A stretch of 64,000 nt of DNA from positions 1 to 64,000 of the forward strand of contig NZ_JAMXEX010000002.1 of assembly GCF_025370775.1 (NCBI RefSeq), written 5' to 3'. A model generated the notes under the pieces. It did no database searches. It was not told the DNA's origin and saw nothing but the letters and a program-made list of their open reading frames with translations. This document shows, piece after piece, positions 36,189 through 54,202 of the stretch (positions are counted from its first letter, which is position 1; every line of letters begins with the position of its first letter). This stretch comes from Ancylothrix sp. D3o. Lineage in GTDB: Bacteria; Cyanobacteriota; Cyanobacteriia; Cyanobacteriales; Oscillatoriaceae. A program made the position numbers and the translations under genes.

Positions 36189-36625
36189 AAAGAGAGTCAG
36201 ACATAAGCCGGGTTCTGTTCTCATAACTGTATTACAGCCATGAGGGCGGTTATCTATCTAGGGCGGCTGTTACCAGACGCCTCAAGCGGTACATTAAAAC
36301 GGAGCCGGAAAAAGACCAACCATTGCCCCTCCGACCTTGCTTCCAACCGGGGTTTACCGAGCCAACGCCTCTCGACGTTGCTGGTGCGCTCTTACCGCAC
36401 CTTTGCACCCTTACCAATCAATCTTAAATTTTAAAGTTTAAATTTTAGATTCAATCACCATCGAAAATTTAAAATCTAAAATTGATTGGCGGTATCTTTC
36501 TGTGGCACTATCCTCACGGTCGCCCGCACTGGGAGTTACCCAGCAAGTTTGGTCTTTCGGAAGCCCGGACTTTCCTCAAACAGGTGAAATTCACCCATCT
36601 GCAACCACCTCGCTCACTCTCTCTT
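36189..36625 (-). ncRNA. rnpB: RNase P RNA (M1-type, cyanobacterial)
   Basis: Read on the minus strand it contains the universally conserved GAGGAAAGTCCGGGCT, GGGTAACTCCCAGTGCGGG, AGTGCCACAGAAA, TAAACCCCGG and, near the 3' end, AGAACCCGGCTTATG cores. The ends were set by pairing AAGAGAGAGT (36625-36616) with ACTCTCTT (36196-36189) as helix P1. It forms the catalytic part of the tRNA 5'-processing enzyme. Between 36414 and 36489 helix P12 is enlarged by an A/T-rich repeat insertion. A T-rich tract (TTTTTATTTTTTTT) follows the 3' end. Confidence 0.95.
36414..36489 (-). repeat. STRR-type insertion forming an extended P12 hairpin in rnpB
   Basis: Outer pairs CCAATCAAT/ATTGATTGG enclose degenerate TAAATTT/AAATCTA units. 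Similar heptanucleotide units are seen beside moaA and rpsD. Repeats inside rnpB have been described for filamentous cyanobacteria. Confidence 0.7.
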
Positions 36626-48058: not shown

Positions 48059-48751
48059 ATGAGTGATTTGAACAAACAGGATAAAATTCGCCCCAGTGAT
48101 GAATTAATGGCCAATGACACTTTAACAAATAATTTAGATTTTGGCGGCCAGCTTATTCTGGGGAGTCCTGATAATGAGAACTTCAACGGTACCCTAGGCA
48201 ATGATTCGATTTATGCCTATGAGGGAAATGATATTATTAATGGTTTAGATGGTAATGATTGGCTGTTTGGTAACAGTGATTTTGATACTTTGATTGGCGA
48301 GGCGGGCGATGATGTATTGGCCGGTGGTAGAAATAATGATACGCTTTTGGGAGGGGCCGGTATTGATTTATTGTTTGGCAATTTAGGCAATGATAGTCTT
48401 TATGGTGGCGACGGCAATGATACCTTGGCAGGGGGAAAAGACAATGATGATTTGTTTGGCGATGAGGGGAATGATTGGCTGTCTGGAGACTTGGGAAATG
48501 ATTTTTTAACCGGCGGTAAAGGCAATGATTCTTTTGTAGTGGGCGTAGGGAAAGGCGGTGATTTTATTACTGATTTTCGCGATGGCGACGATATCATTGT
48601 TATCAGCGGTGGTCTGAGTTTTGGTCAGCTTTTTATCAATCAATTTGGGACAAGTGTTCGCATTTCTTTTAATGATCCTCGTGAAGTTTTGGCAACGCTG
48701 AATTCGGCAATTGCTAATCAAATGGGGATTGAGGATTTTGTGTTTATTTAG
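48059..48751 (+). CDS. small RTX (hemolysin-type calcium-binding repeat) protein
   Basis: A 230-residue acidic protein with about ten GGxGNDxLx-type nonapeptides between residues 40 and 160, such as GGAGIDLLFGNLGNDSLYGG, which form a calcium-dependent beta-roll. A cap (FVVGVGKGGDFITDFRDGDDIIVISGG) follows. There is no N-terminal signal; a C-terminal type I secretion signal is plausible. GAGGAG lies about 14 bases before the ATG. It has the same repeat type as the large RTX protein at 25911 but no Calx-beta domains. Confidence 0.85.
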   Translation: MSDLNKQDKIRPSDELMANDTLTNNLDFGGQLILGSPDNENFNGTLGNDSIYAYEGNDIINGLDGNDWLFGNSDFDTLIGEAGDDVLAGGRNNDTLLGGAGIDLLFGNLGNDSLYGGDGNDTLAGGKDNDDLFGDEGNDWLSGDLGNDFLTGGKGNDSFVVGVGKGGDFITDFRDGDDIIVISGGLSFGQLFINQFGTSVRISFNDPREVLATLNSAIANQMGIEDFVFI

Positions 48752-50099: not shown

Positions 50100-50312
50100 A
50101 TGGTAACTTCAAGCATTTCTTTACGGGATATCTCAAAGCTGACGCCGGCAGATGTGGAGCAACTGGCGGTACGTTTAGAGCAGGATGAGTATAAGGATGC
50201 CTTTGAGGGATTAAATGATTGGCACTTGCTTCGTGCTATTGCTTTTCAGCGTCCCGAACTTGTGGAAACTTATCTGCACCTGCTGGATATGGAAGCCTAC
50301 GATGAGGCTTAG
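50100..50312 (+). CDS. DUF2555 family small protein
   Basis: A 70-residue helical soluble protein (LTPADVEQLAVRLEQDEY and LNDWHLLRAIAFQRPELVETYLHLLDMEAYDEA) matching a small cyanobacteria-specific family. Function unknown to me. GAGGG stands about seven bases before the ATG. Confidence 0.85.
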   Translation: MVTSSISLRDISKLTPADVEQLAVRLEQDEYKDAFEGLNDWHLLRAIAFQRPELVETYLHLLDMEAYDEA

Positions 50313-50389
50313 CGTTTGCCGATTTTTGCTCAGACATCTGAACAACCTAACCCGCTAACTGCCTTCCGTTTTAAGGAAAGGTGAAAAAC

Positions 50390-50409
50390 CCTCCCCCACT
50401 GTGGGGAGG
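50390..50409 (+). terminator. hairpin downstream of DUF2555 gene
   Basis: CCTCCCC pairs with GGGGAGG around a six-base loop. No clear T-run follows; possible terminator or mRNA stabiliser. Confidence 0.35.
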
Positions 50410-50753
50410 ATCTCAGCGGGAGAAAGCTTTCTCAGCAATATTTCTCTCAAAAAAATATTTTAGATTCTTGGCCTTAGACAGCAAACTATCTATCTGAAGC
50501 ATGAATTTTCTTTACATTAGTTTACATTAATCAAGCGTCGAAATAAGAGAGGTTTCAAAGATGAGCCGGTAGCTTGTGAAGTAAAATCCCCAAAAAAAGT
50601 AAAGTTTTTTATCAAAAATGGTTGCTAAGAAAAACCGGTGATATATTAATAGATGAAGCGAGGAAAGCTTCCCTGGCAGATAAAACAGCCAAGTTAAAGT
50701 TAAGTTGAGAGGTACAAAGCGCTGTTAAAGCTACATCTGTCTCGTAGATCGAA

Positions 50754-50920
50754 CGACAACACCCAAGCAAAACCCTAATATTTCCTCAAGTGGTTAAAAG
50801 GGAGTTCTGCAACTGACATTATTGTGTGCGAGTTGAGTGAAAAAGCAAGTCAGTGCAACTCTAAGTAGAATAACAAAAGGGAGGAAATCACTTAGCCGGT
50901 AAAGTCTTGGGTGTTGTTGT
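50754..50920 (+). ncRNA. candidate structured ncRNA with 6S-like long interrupted hairpin
   Basis: Three nested helices: 50754-50767 with 50906-50919 (CGACAACACCCAAG and CTTGGGTGTTGTTG; 13 Watson-Crick pairs and one G-U), TTTCCTC (50781) with GAGGAAA (50881), and GAGTT-GCA-CTGAC (50802-50817) with GTCAGTGCAACTC (50849-50861). The loops between are of moderate size, so the overall form is a rod with internal bubbles about 167 long, as in 6S RNA. Strand is uncertain since the helices are symmetric; no terminator was found. Confidence 0.45.
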
Positions 50921-51063
50921 GTTTAGAATTTTTAGAGTATTTGTCTCGACATGATGATATTTGATCATACAGAGTCTACAGAGGGTACTGTAGTTTTTCT
51001 GGCTTTGTTTGAGGGTCTTGTTCTGTTTCTTGTCGAGTGTGGTTGCTTTTAAAGGTGCTGTCT

Positions 51064-51366
51064 TTAAGTTTCATTAATATAATTAACTGGATTTTGGCTA
51101 CTCCATTTTAAGGGAGGAGTGCATTTAATAATTTTTGCATCTGCATCAGACAAACCTACAATTAGTCTGCTATTTTCAATTCTCGTGGTTTTAGAGGCAT
51201 CAATTGATGCTTCTAGCATCAATGAACCATCCCAGTTAAAAATTTGTACCTTTTTGATTTCGTTTTCTTTCCCCTGCTCAATTTTCCATTCACCACTCAC
51301 TCCTGCTGTTAATAATTCGAGTAAGTTGTCTCTGGTTCTGAGGCGAAGAATTAGGCTGCGGGTCAT
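51064..51366 (-). CDS. small hypothetical protein
   Basis: A 100-residue soluble protein with alternating beta-strand text (KIEQGKENEIKKVQIFNWDGSLMLEASI, RLIVGLSDADAKIIKC). AGAGGA lies eight bases before the ATG, which favours a real gene. No family recognised. Divergent from the Uma2 gene. Confidence 0.5.
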   Translation of the reverse strand: MTRSLILRLRTRDNLLELLTAGVSGEWKIEQGKENEIKKVQIFNWDGSLMLEASIDASKTTRIENSRLIVGLSDADAKIIKCTPPLKWSSQNPVNYINET

Positions 51367-52742: not shown

Positions 52743-53012
52743 ATGCCTAGAGCACCCAAAGTCCCAAATTATTTTTCCGTTCACCTGATGATGCAGGGAG
52801 GACACCGCGAAGAAGTGCAGTTTCCAACGATCCAAGACTTCCAGAAGTGGTATAGCAGCGAAATAGTACCAAAGTCGGCATCGAATGATTTTATCAACGT
52901 ACCGATTAAACATATTCAAAATGAATATATGGTCGTGCGCCCGTCCAGCATTTTAGCGATTCGGGTGCAAGCTGTGTACACTTCCAGCGTAGACAGAAGC
53001 TACGACGAATAA
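52743..53012 (+). CDS. small conserved hypothetical protein
   Basis: An 89-residue soluble protein (YFSVHLMMQGGHREEVQFPTIQDFQKWYSS, VPIKHIQNEYMVVRPSSILAIRVQAVY). Its stop codon overlaps the start of mltA by one base (TAATG), implying co-translation with the murein transglycosylase. I do not recognise a named family; a link to cell-wall metabolism is only inferred from the overlap. Confidence 0.72.
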   Translation: MPRAPKVPNYFSVHLMMQGGHREEVQFPTIQDFQKWYSSEIVPKSASNDFINVPIKHIQNEYMVVRPSSILAIRVQAVYTSSVDRSYDE

Positions 53013-54202
53013 TGCTCAAGCTGGCTTTGGCAATAGGGGGGATGGCGTTGGTGATACCGCCTTCTGGTTGGGTAGCTTTATCTGCTATTCCCACACAGCC
53101 AGTGATTGCCCAAAATTTTTTAGCCCAAAATTTTTTAGCCCAAAATTTTTTAGCCCAAAATTTAGAACCAGCCGAAACTTTAGGCTTTGATGACCAACTG
53201 TGGGGAAATGATACCACACCGGCAGACCGACAAGCTTTACTAGAAGCCATTGATTACAGTTTGCAGTATTTACAAACTCCCGCCGCCGCTAAAGCTTACC
53301 AGCAGTATCCAAGCGGAATTACCCGCCAAAAAATCCAGCAAAGTTTGCTACGATTTCGTGAATTGTTGCAGGAGTTAAATTCGCCCCAAGAACTGCAAGC
53401 CGCTGTCCAAAGAGAATTTACCTTATATCAACCGGCAGGAAATAACACAGTTTTCGTTACCGGCTATTACACTCCGTTTTTTGCTGCCAGCCGGACTCCG
53501 AATGATTTATACCGCTATCCGCTTTACCGCCGGCCTCCCGACTTCGGCAACTGGCCAAAACCTCACCCCACACGCGCTGCCCTCGAAGGAACAGACGGGA
53601 CAGGAGGCCGGTTAAGCGGTTTAGAATTGGTATGGCTGCGGGATCGTTTGGAGGCGTTTTTTGTCCACATTCAAGGGTCTGCTTATTTGCAATTAACTGA
53701 TGGCACCAGAATGGCGGTGGGGTTTGCCGGTGCAACAGATTACCCGTTTACGAGTATTAGCCGGGAATTGGCAAAAGATGGAAAATTACGCCTTGATGGC
53801 TTAAATATTCCGGTTTTAACAAATTATTTTCGCTCCAATCCAGGGGAATTAAGTAATTATTTACCGCGTAATAATCGGTTTATTTTTTTTAGCGAAAAGG
53901 CAAGCCCAAGACCGACTGGCGCGTTACAATTGCCGGTGACAAGCGAACGAAGCATCGCCACCGATAAAGCTTTAATGCCGGCGGGGGGGTTGGCATTAAT
54001 TCATACAAAATTGCCAATTATCAACGAATATGGACAAGTTGAGCAACGTTTAGTGACACGCTATGTACTCGATCAGGATGCTGGAAGTGCGATTAAAGGG
54101 CCAGATCGAGTAGATTACTATCAAGGAATTGGCCCACAGGCATCTGCTAGAGCAGGTGTGACCGGTTCAAGGGGCCGGTTATACTACCTCCTATTAAAGT
54201 AG
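53012..54202 (+). CDS. mltA: membrane-bound lytic murein transglycosylase A
   Basis: A 396-residue periplasmic enzyme with an N-terminal hydrophobic export signal (LALAIGGMALVIPPSGWVAL). It has an MltA domain (FVTGYYTPFFAASRTPNDLYRYPLYRRP, FVHIQGSAYLQLTDGTRMAVGFAG) and a C-terminal 3D domain whose conserved Asp residues are visible in RYVLDQDAGSAIKGPDRVDYYQG. It cleaves peptidoglycan glycan strands to 1,6-anhydro ends. The N-terminal linker repeats the pentapeptide NFLAQ three times in tandem, encoded by a perfect 15-bp repeat, which may vary in copy number. Confidence 0.93.
   Translation: MLKLALAIGGMALVIPPSGWVALSAIPTQPVIAQNFLAQNFLAQNFLAQNLEPAETLGFDDQLWGNDTTPADRQALLEAIDYSLQYLQTPAAAKAYQQYPSGITRQKIQQSLLRFRELLQELNSPQELQAAVQREFTLYQPAGNNTVFVTGYYTPFFAASRTPNDLYRYPLYRRPPDFGNWPKPHPTRAALEGTDGTGGRLSGLELVWLRDRLEAFFVHIQGSAYLQLTDGTRMAVGFAGATDYPFTSISRELAKDGKLRLDGLNIPVLTNYFRSNPGELSNYLPRNNRFIFFSEKASPRPTGALQLPVTSERSIATDKALMPAGGLALIHTKLPIINEYGQVEQRLVTRYVLDQDAGSAIKGPDRVDYYQGIGPQASARAGVTGSRGRLYYLLLK
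53111..53164 (+). repeat. 15-bp tandem repeat within mltA
   Basis: CAAAATTTTTTAGCC is repeated three times perfectly (53111-53155) plus a partial fourth copy. A multiple of three preserves the frame; T6 and A4 runs make slippage likely. Confidence 0.92.

Follow-up and report, generated by a model that had tools for sequence, protein, structure and literature searches.

The window, a stretch of 64,000 nt from the cyanobacterium Ancylothrix sp. D3o (contig NZ_JAMXEX010000002.1), carries one copy of a widespread family of structured cyanobacterial RNAs, conserved and covarying in related genomes, of defined strand, built of two domains, preceded by a conserved promoter, present in multiple copies, and distinct from 6S RNA and from the families of Rfam. 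The family is unnamed: Rfam 15 holds no entry for it, and no name for it was found in the accessible parts of the cyanobacterial sRNA literature, the outline in PMC6202907 included. An earlier note on this DNA had described a rod of nested helices at 50754-50920 as a candidate 6S-like RNA; a larger RNA is predicted, with the rod as its 3' domain only (Table 1), since conservation starts well upstream of the rod when 36 copies are aligned together with more of their flanks. As regards its role, we hold with middling confidence that the product is a stand-alone structured RNA of ~270 nt that would be driven by an activator and would bind a protein in trans, in stoichiometric amounts.

Table 1. 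Features of the RNA locus and its surroundings, in window coordinates.
Feature	Position	Strand	Basis or support
Whole predicted RNA, ~272 nt	50654-50925	+	Inferred: 5' end from the -10 box, 3' end from where the closing helix stops
P1, 5'-terminal hairpin GAAGC/GCUUC	50655-50671	+	4 of its 5 pairs invariant across 22 sequences; 100% of cells paired
P2, hairpin GGCAGAU...ACAGC / GCUGU...AUCUGUC	50675-50741	+	Helices 2 and 3, both with 100% of cells paired, nearly invariant
P2 apical motif AGAGGUAnAAA	50708-50718	+	Kept in 104 distinct copies
P3, helix closing the rod, with a U-rich stretch after it	50753-50920	+	Helix 5, with 92% of cells paired; of its 16 pairs, 9 changed on both sides
P4, AUUUCCUC (50780-50787) with GAGGAAAU (50881-50888)	50780-50888	+	Helix 7, with 96.1% of cells paired
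P5, apical part of the rod, GAGUUCUGCAACUGAC (50802-50817) with GUCAGUGCAACUC (50849-50861)	50802-50861	+	Helices 9 and 10, with 100% and 87.9% of cells paired
Upstream promoter element GTAAAGTTTnnTnnCA, 16 bp, about -55 to -40	50599-50614	+	Promoter alignment
-10 box TATATT	50642-50647	+	Conserved TGcTAnnnT in the 106-copy alignment
Upstream neighbour, DUF2555 protein	50100-50312	+	Pfam PF10742, E 3e-30
Downstream neighbours, 89-aa ORF and MltA-domain protein	52743-54202	+	Pfam MltA, E 3e-46

All three nested helices claimed for the rod are present in the minimum free energy fold of 50754-50920 (+), namely the closing helix, ATTTCCTC/GAGGAAAT, and GAGTTCTGCAACTGAC/GTCAGTGCAACTC, and an inverted-repeat search placed the arms of the closing helix at 50753-50767 and 50906-50920, 15 nt each and 93% complementary. 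The fold energy of -52.7 kcal/mol compares with -35.1 +/- 4.0 for shuffled sequences (z -4.47, none of 200 as good). The extent given to the rod was nevertheless too narrow, conservation beginning ~100 nt upstream of 50754. The whole 272-nt RNA folds at -75.0 kcal/mol (z -2.76, matched by 2 of 200 shuffles), which is weaker than the rod alone. Because the minus strand of the rod also folds nearly as well (z -4.09), the strand cannot be read from folding alone; for the opposite strand of the 272-nt RNA the z value is -3.08. The strand was therefore taken from G-U pairs, the promoter, and the covariance-model scores, which are 37-154 bits on the true strand, except for 28.5 (locus L069) and 34.3 (L017), and at most 33.8 bits on the opposite one.

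Covariation in related genomes, the check that the earlier note had proposed, came out in favor of the structure. Alignment A1, of 22 rows aligned by sequence only, omits 13 of the 36 copies (truncated, near-duplicate, or strongly diverged) and one near-identical copy from the tandem locus L012; alignment A2 is A1 minus one more row (L006). RNAalifold assigned 51 pairs to A1, in which 95.5% of the cells are paired (91.2% in shuffles). Seventeen pairs are changed on both sides, compared with 7.9 +/- 1.6 in shuffles, and none of 500 shuffles reaches 17; nine of these pairs belong to the closing helix of the rod. The covariation score is 0.232, against 0.149 for shuffles and 0.051-0.080 for slid structures, a slide control that favors the structure since the latter came from the same alignment. 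Kinship among the sequences inflates the shuffle controls, and the counts of pairs and of their types are the robust measures. P1 and P2 show almost no variation, so that their support comes from conservation and pairing, not from covariation.

Two covariance models were built, R1 for the 5' domain and R2 for the rod, matching 50652-50746 and 50748-50923 of the window, respectively. The 5' domain of ~95 nt, which the earlier note had missed, consists of the two hairpins P1 and P2 and is almost invariant in sequence; the motif in the P2 loop is constant while its flanks differ in both length and sequence. The closing helix P3, together with the U-rich stretch behind it, possibly serves also as the terminator. 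The internal loops of the rod lie between helices 5/6 and 7/9. Two subtypes of the RNA can be distinguished in A1 (columns 29 and ~124), one combining GGCAG with CUCGUC, the other GACAG and CUCAUC; two of the 22 sequences depart from this rule. Several genomes of the window's family contain one copy of each subtype, which suggests that the subtypes stem from an old duplication.

The RNA locus sits between the DUF2555 and the Uma2/MltA genes, in what had been called a gene desert, and indeed no convincing gene was found between the DUF2555 gene, which ends at 50312, and an ORF on the minus strand at 51064. The claim that no ORF competes with the RNA held as well: no conserved ORF runs through it, the median longest ORF being 11-20 aa per frame in 101 copies (for the ORF and motif statistics the antisense R2 matches were removed from alignment A5, reducing it from 126 to 108 rows). 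A protein-coding reading was rejected, the ORFs being short and unconserved and length differences of 1 nt occurring inside conserved blocks. A C/G-rich inverted repeat, CCTCCCCCACTGTGGGGAGG, follows the DUF2555 gene at 50391-50410 and is likely a terminator separating this gene from the RNA gene. Further upstream, at 48059-48751 (+), the window encodes an RTX protein with calcium-binding repeats (five stretches match Pfam PF00353).

The RNA is predicted to have a strongly conserved promoter of its own, made up of the 16-bp upstream element and the -10 box, the latter being the reason for placing the putative transcription start near 50654; no canonical -35 sequence is present at the standard spacing. 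The promoter statistics cover only the 106 copies (105 distinct promoters) that match a relaxed motif; the upstream element was found in 98 of the 105, and in 91 it starts 56 or 57 bases before GAAGC. Its half-sites GTAAA/GTTnCA, spaced by 10 bp, resemble the sites of OmpR-type regulators such as RpaB. By our own count, the opposite strand of the element agrees with the HLR1 consensus KTTACAWW-N2-KTTACAWW at 12 of 16 defined positions, with a weak second half-site, and its position, about -58 to -41, overlaps only in part the range of -45 to -66 given for activating sites in the accessible part of the source (PMC13421787). This motif resemblance is what points to a possible control of the RNA by an activator. 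Having its own promoter, recognized by conservation, an intergenic location, and no ORF, the RNA shows some of the features expected of a trans-acting base-pairing sRNA.

Relatives of the RNA are numerous. Of 60 related genomes, 23 yielded them in a BLASTN search with 50700-51000, and multiple or tandem copies occur in some of these. Within the order, R2 matches 233 of 291 genomes and 104 of 121 genera. In the phylum as a whole, R1 matches 85 of 386 genomes; 80 of these belong to the order, the remaining 5 to different orders of the same class. R1 also matches 176 of the 196 genomes of at least 98% completeness from the family that holds Nodularia. Absences of R1 and R2 are not firm, since R1 is weaker beyond its training sequences and the strict filters of large searches lose hits. 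The two domains belong together: in 98 loci selected for holding the RNA, 104 of 110 R1 matches have a same-strand R2 match within -3 to +6 nt, and the remaining six include copies cut by locus ends. A pattern scan gave at least 120 stretches; among the 80 loci listed from it, R1 (E up to 0.1) was found in all 37 with a cyanobacterial title, the weakest being Prochloron (27.1 bits, E 0.012), and in none of the 43 others; the scan combined with R1 placed the RNA in Nostoc carneum, Fischerella muscicola PCC 7414, Chlorogloeopsis fritschii PCC 6912, and Xenococcus PCC 7305. R1 had no match in 26 viral contigs that fit the pattern, and the best R2 match in 19 non-cyanobacterial genomes had an E value of only 0.19.

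The copy number ranges from 1 to 8 per positive genome among the R2 matches listed. The host genome (G000) contains a second, diverged copy at G000:C13:152692-152948 (-), represented by loci L215 and L248, which retains the upstream promoter element and is flanked by ORFs that we take to encode an M28-peptidase-like protein and a ComF-like phosphoribosyltransferase. Genome G004 has eight R2 matches, mostly ~340 nt apart, and its locus L012 (G004:C3, about 1407316-1410608) is a tandem array of five copies within 3 kb, the last one degraded in its 3' half. L011, L021, L023, L062, L100, L145, L156, L219, and L222 carry shorter tandem sets. Copies were also found on two Nostoc plasmids, one of which was typed as conjugative (NZ_CP151101.1:333455-333653 and NZ_AP025733.1:245713-245935); these are the only two among 72,556 plasmid records to hold the RNA, and no annotated feature lies beneath either copy.

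In the reading favored here, an activator would bind the element at -55 to -40 and transcription would start at about 50654, giving an RNA that would be held together by the hairpin at its 5' end and by the long closing helix. It would act in trans by binding a presumed protein partner in stoichiometric amounts, the nearly invariant P1 and P2 forming the recognition surface and the covarying rod a scaffold or a second contact, and extra and tandem copies would raise its dose. It may work like protein-titrating or polymerase-binding RNAs, outside the 6S family. Recognition by a protein fits better than a short base-pairing seed because P1 and P2 are paired yet invariant and the helices of the rod vary but covary; conservation over the whole length, the invariance of P1 and P2, and the amplification of copies likewise favor an RNP or titrating RNA over a short-seed antisense sRNA. 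Since GAAGC-N7-GCTTC at +1 forms a palindrome in the DNA, the invariant P1 and P2 could also reflect a function at the DNA level.

The conserved P2 loop motif also suits a base-pairing RNA, and a trans-acting sRNA in which AGAGGUAnAAA pairs with mRNAs and the rod acts as stabilizer and terminator is possible, if rather doubtful. It would account for a motif kept constant in a loop with flanks of varying length and sequence, and the accessible part of the Yfr1 description reports a conserved unpaired motif as well (PMC2190773). Against it, conservation spans all 270 nt, the paired parts included, and exact complements of the motif in nine genomes are not clearly above the reversed pattern (in the host genome 13 compared with 12, where the 13 include the RNA gene itself). 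Orthologous recurrence among 70 fetched sites amounted to only two pairs, both between the sister species G001 and G004. No targets of the loop motif were thus found in a search limited to exact complements of this one motif in nine genomes.

The description of the rod as 6S-like stood as far as a structured RNA in a gene desert is concerned, whereas the 6S identity did not. The RNA resembles 6S RNA (RF00013; ssrS/ssaA) in being a widespread rod of nested helices with internal loops encoded by a stand-alone gene. Unlike 6S RNA, it is ~270 nt long (6S ~185), has two extra 5' hairpins, occurs in multiple copies and at another locus, and gives no sequence or model match. A local scan with Rfam 15 at E up to 10 returned no 6S match at the candidate, and R2, run unfiltered over eight loci bearing 6S, scored at most 10.5 bits. 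RF00013 matches 29 of 30 genomes, the host included, where the 6S gene is on another contig (G000:C1:895061-895250, 91.7 bits). Membership in the 6S family was therefore rejected; the 6S-like outline of the rod is at most a resemblance. The rod has internal loops, but no bubble homologous to that of 6S could be aligned, and a separate 5' domain is present. In Nodularia, the transcription start of 6S lies within purK, according to the accessible part of the report (PMC3610870).

A second, diverged 6S-type RNA, whose rod would mimic an open promoter to bind RNA polymerase and whose 5' hairpins would be an added module, is in our view quite unlikely. The shape and length of the rod, the large internal loops inside a long closing helix, and the stoichiometric, multi-copy character would suit it, but it conflicts with the mutual blindness of RF00013 and R2, the true 6S kept alongside in nearly all the genomes scanned, the different locus, and the two extra hairpins.

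Nor did the RNA match any other Rfam 15 family above its gathering score. In the whole window only the bacterial class A RNase P RNA at 36189-36620 (-) passed it (255.5 bits), and 14 other loci holding the RNA gave no Rfam match whatever. Cyano-2 (RF01702) matched 50300-50461 (-), outside the RNA, with 14.4 bits instead of the 40 needed, which is a chance match. Among RNAs known from the literature, a possible relative is the sRNA 2462444f of Nostoc sp. PCC 7120, of 258 nt, with homologues in 24 of 27 heterocystous genomes; according to the accessible part of its description, it is abundant and verified by Northern hybridization, and nitrogen limitation induces it without the involvement of NtcA or HetR (PMC4734099). 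The number 2462444f was met in no other paper of the literature searched. Judged from that description alone, 2462444f may belong here by its length (258 nt compared with ~271 nt in L258, the one relative measured) and by its phylogenetic spread, similar to that of R1 in the Nodularia-holding family. In the genome most similar to that of PCC 7120 among those examined, the RNA is at G588:C1:2199618, a coordinate unlike 2462444.

Like Yfr1 and Yfr2, the RNA can be considered a widely conserved cyanobacterial sRNA, and Yfr2, too, exists as a family of several copies. Yfr1, of 54-69 nt with the conserved unpaired motif ACUCCUCACAC in the accessible part of its description (PMC2190773), is a different RNA, as this motif is absent from the sequence studied here. 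NsiR1 of heterocystous cyanobacteria also forms tandem arrays in some genomes; known here by description, it differs in consisting of short repeats upstream of hetF (PMC3610870). The same report, in its accessible part, predicts 764 ncRNAs in Nodularia and places none of its named sRNAs at 3931814; the 764 may include the copy of the RNA. A template RNA of the diversity-generating (DGR) type was considered for Nodularia on account of its gene numbering and rejected: no recognizable reverse transcriptase was found among the ORFs of at least 90 aa near the copy, and R1 has a single match there, compared with 70 copies reported for the element (PMC3610870, accessible part). The accessible parts of PMC2864571, PMC2662882, and PMC5386190 contained nothing that could be matched to the RNA.

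The neighborhoods of 60 loci were compared: the window, the second host copy, and 58 loci taken from the pattern scan. A cluster of ORFs of 82-127 aa and the MltA cluster each accompany 13 of the 60, the window included, and the gene order shared around the RNA argues for an old, vertically inherited locus. The third recurrent neighbor is a cyanobacterial protein of 255-256 aa encoded 3' of the RNA (L253:5154-5924 and others); its only Pfam match, Nuc_deoxyrib_tr, is at chance level (E 0.19), PADLOC gave no match, and a 148-aa piece had none in Pfam.

That the RNA is a 5' leader or cis-element of this gene, present in many Nostoc-type genomes, would agree with the gene's occurrence at 19 of the 60 loci, where it always lies downstream of the RNA and on the RNA's strand. 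We consider this very unlikely, and it was rejected as a general rule: the gene is missing at most loci, the gap between RNA and gene varies (266 nt in L258), the tandem arrays of L012 are too tight for a gene between the copies, the second host copy sits between other genes, and the window retains the small ORF and MltA in the shared order without the 256-aa gene. A functionless, MITE-like mobile or repeat element, whose inverted ends would only resemble a helix, is barely credible: several copies per genome, tandem copies, and copies on plasmids would be expected of it, but it is opposed by the covariation, the conserved promoter upstream of the inverted repeat, the neighbors common to distant genera, the old and divergent copies, and the lack of a match in 50,697 phage records. 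The same negative search and the viral contigs devoid of R1 led to the rejection of a phage origin.

The RNA is likely important to the cell because it is kept in ~80% of the sampled genomes of the order, with two adjoining domains and its own promoter. The covariance models make the RNA testable in culturable strains, and existing maps of transcription start sites can be re-read, since unlabelled orphan transcripts in Nostoc, Nodularia, and other mapped strains may be this RNA. The question is raised of a second large regulatory RNA beside 6S in cyanobacteria. A bolder proposal, which we regard as unlikely, is that of a general RNP RNA of Cyanobacteriales, missed so far because only its structure, and not its sequence, is stable, that would act under an RpaB-like redox or light control as a dose-tunable global regulator, possibly as a second polymerase-binding RNA. 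If true, cyanobacteria would possess, beside 6S, a tandem-amplified regulator wired to photosynthetic redox or light control.
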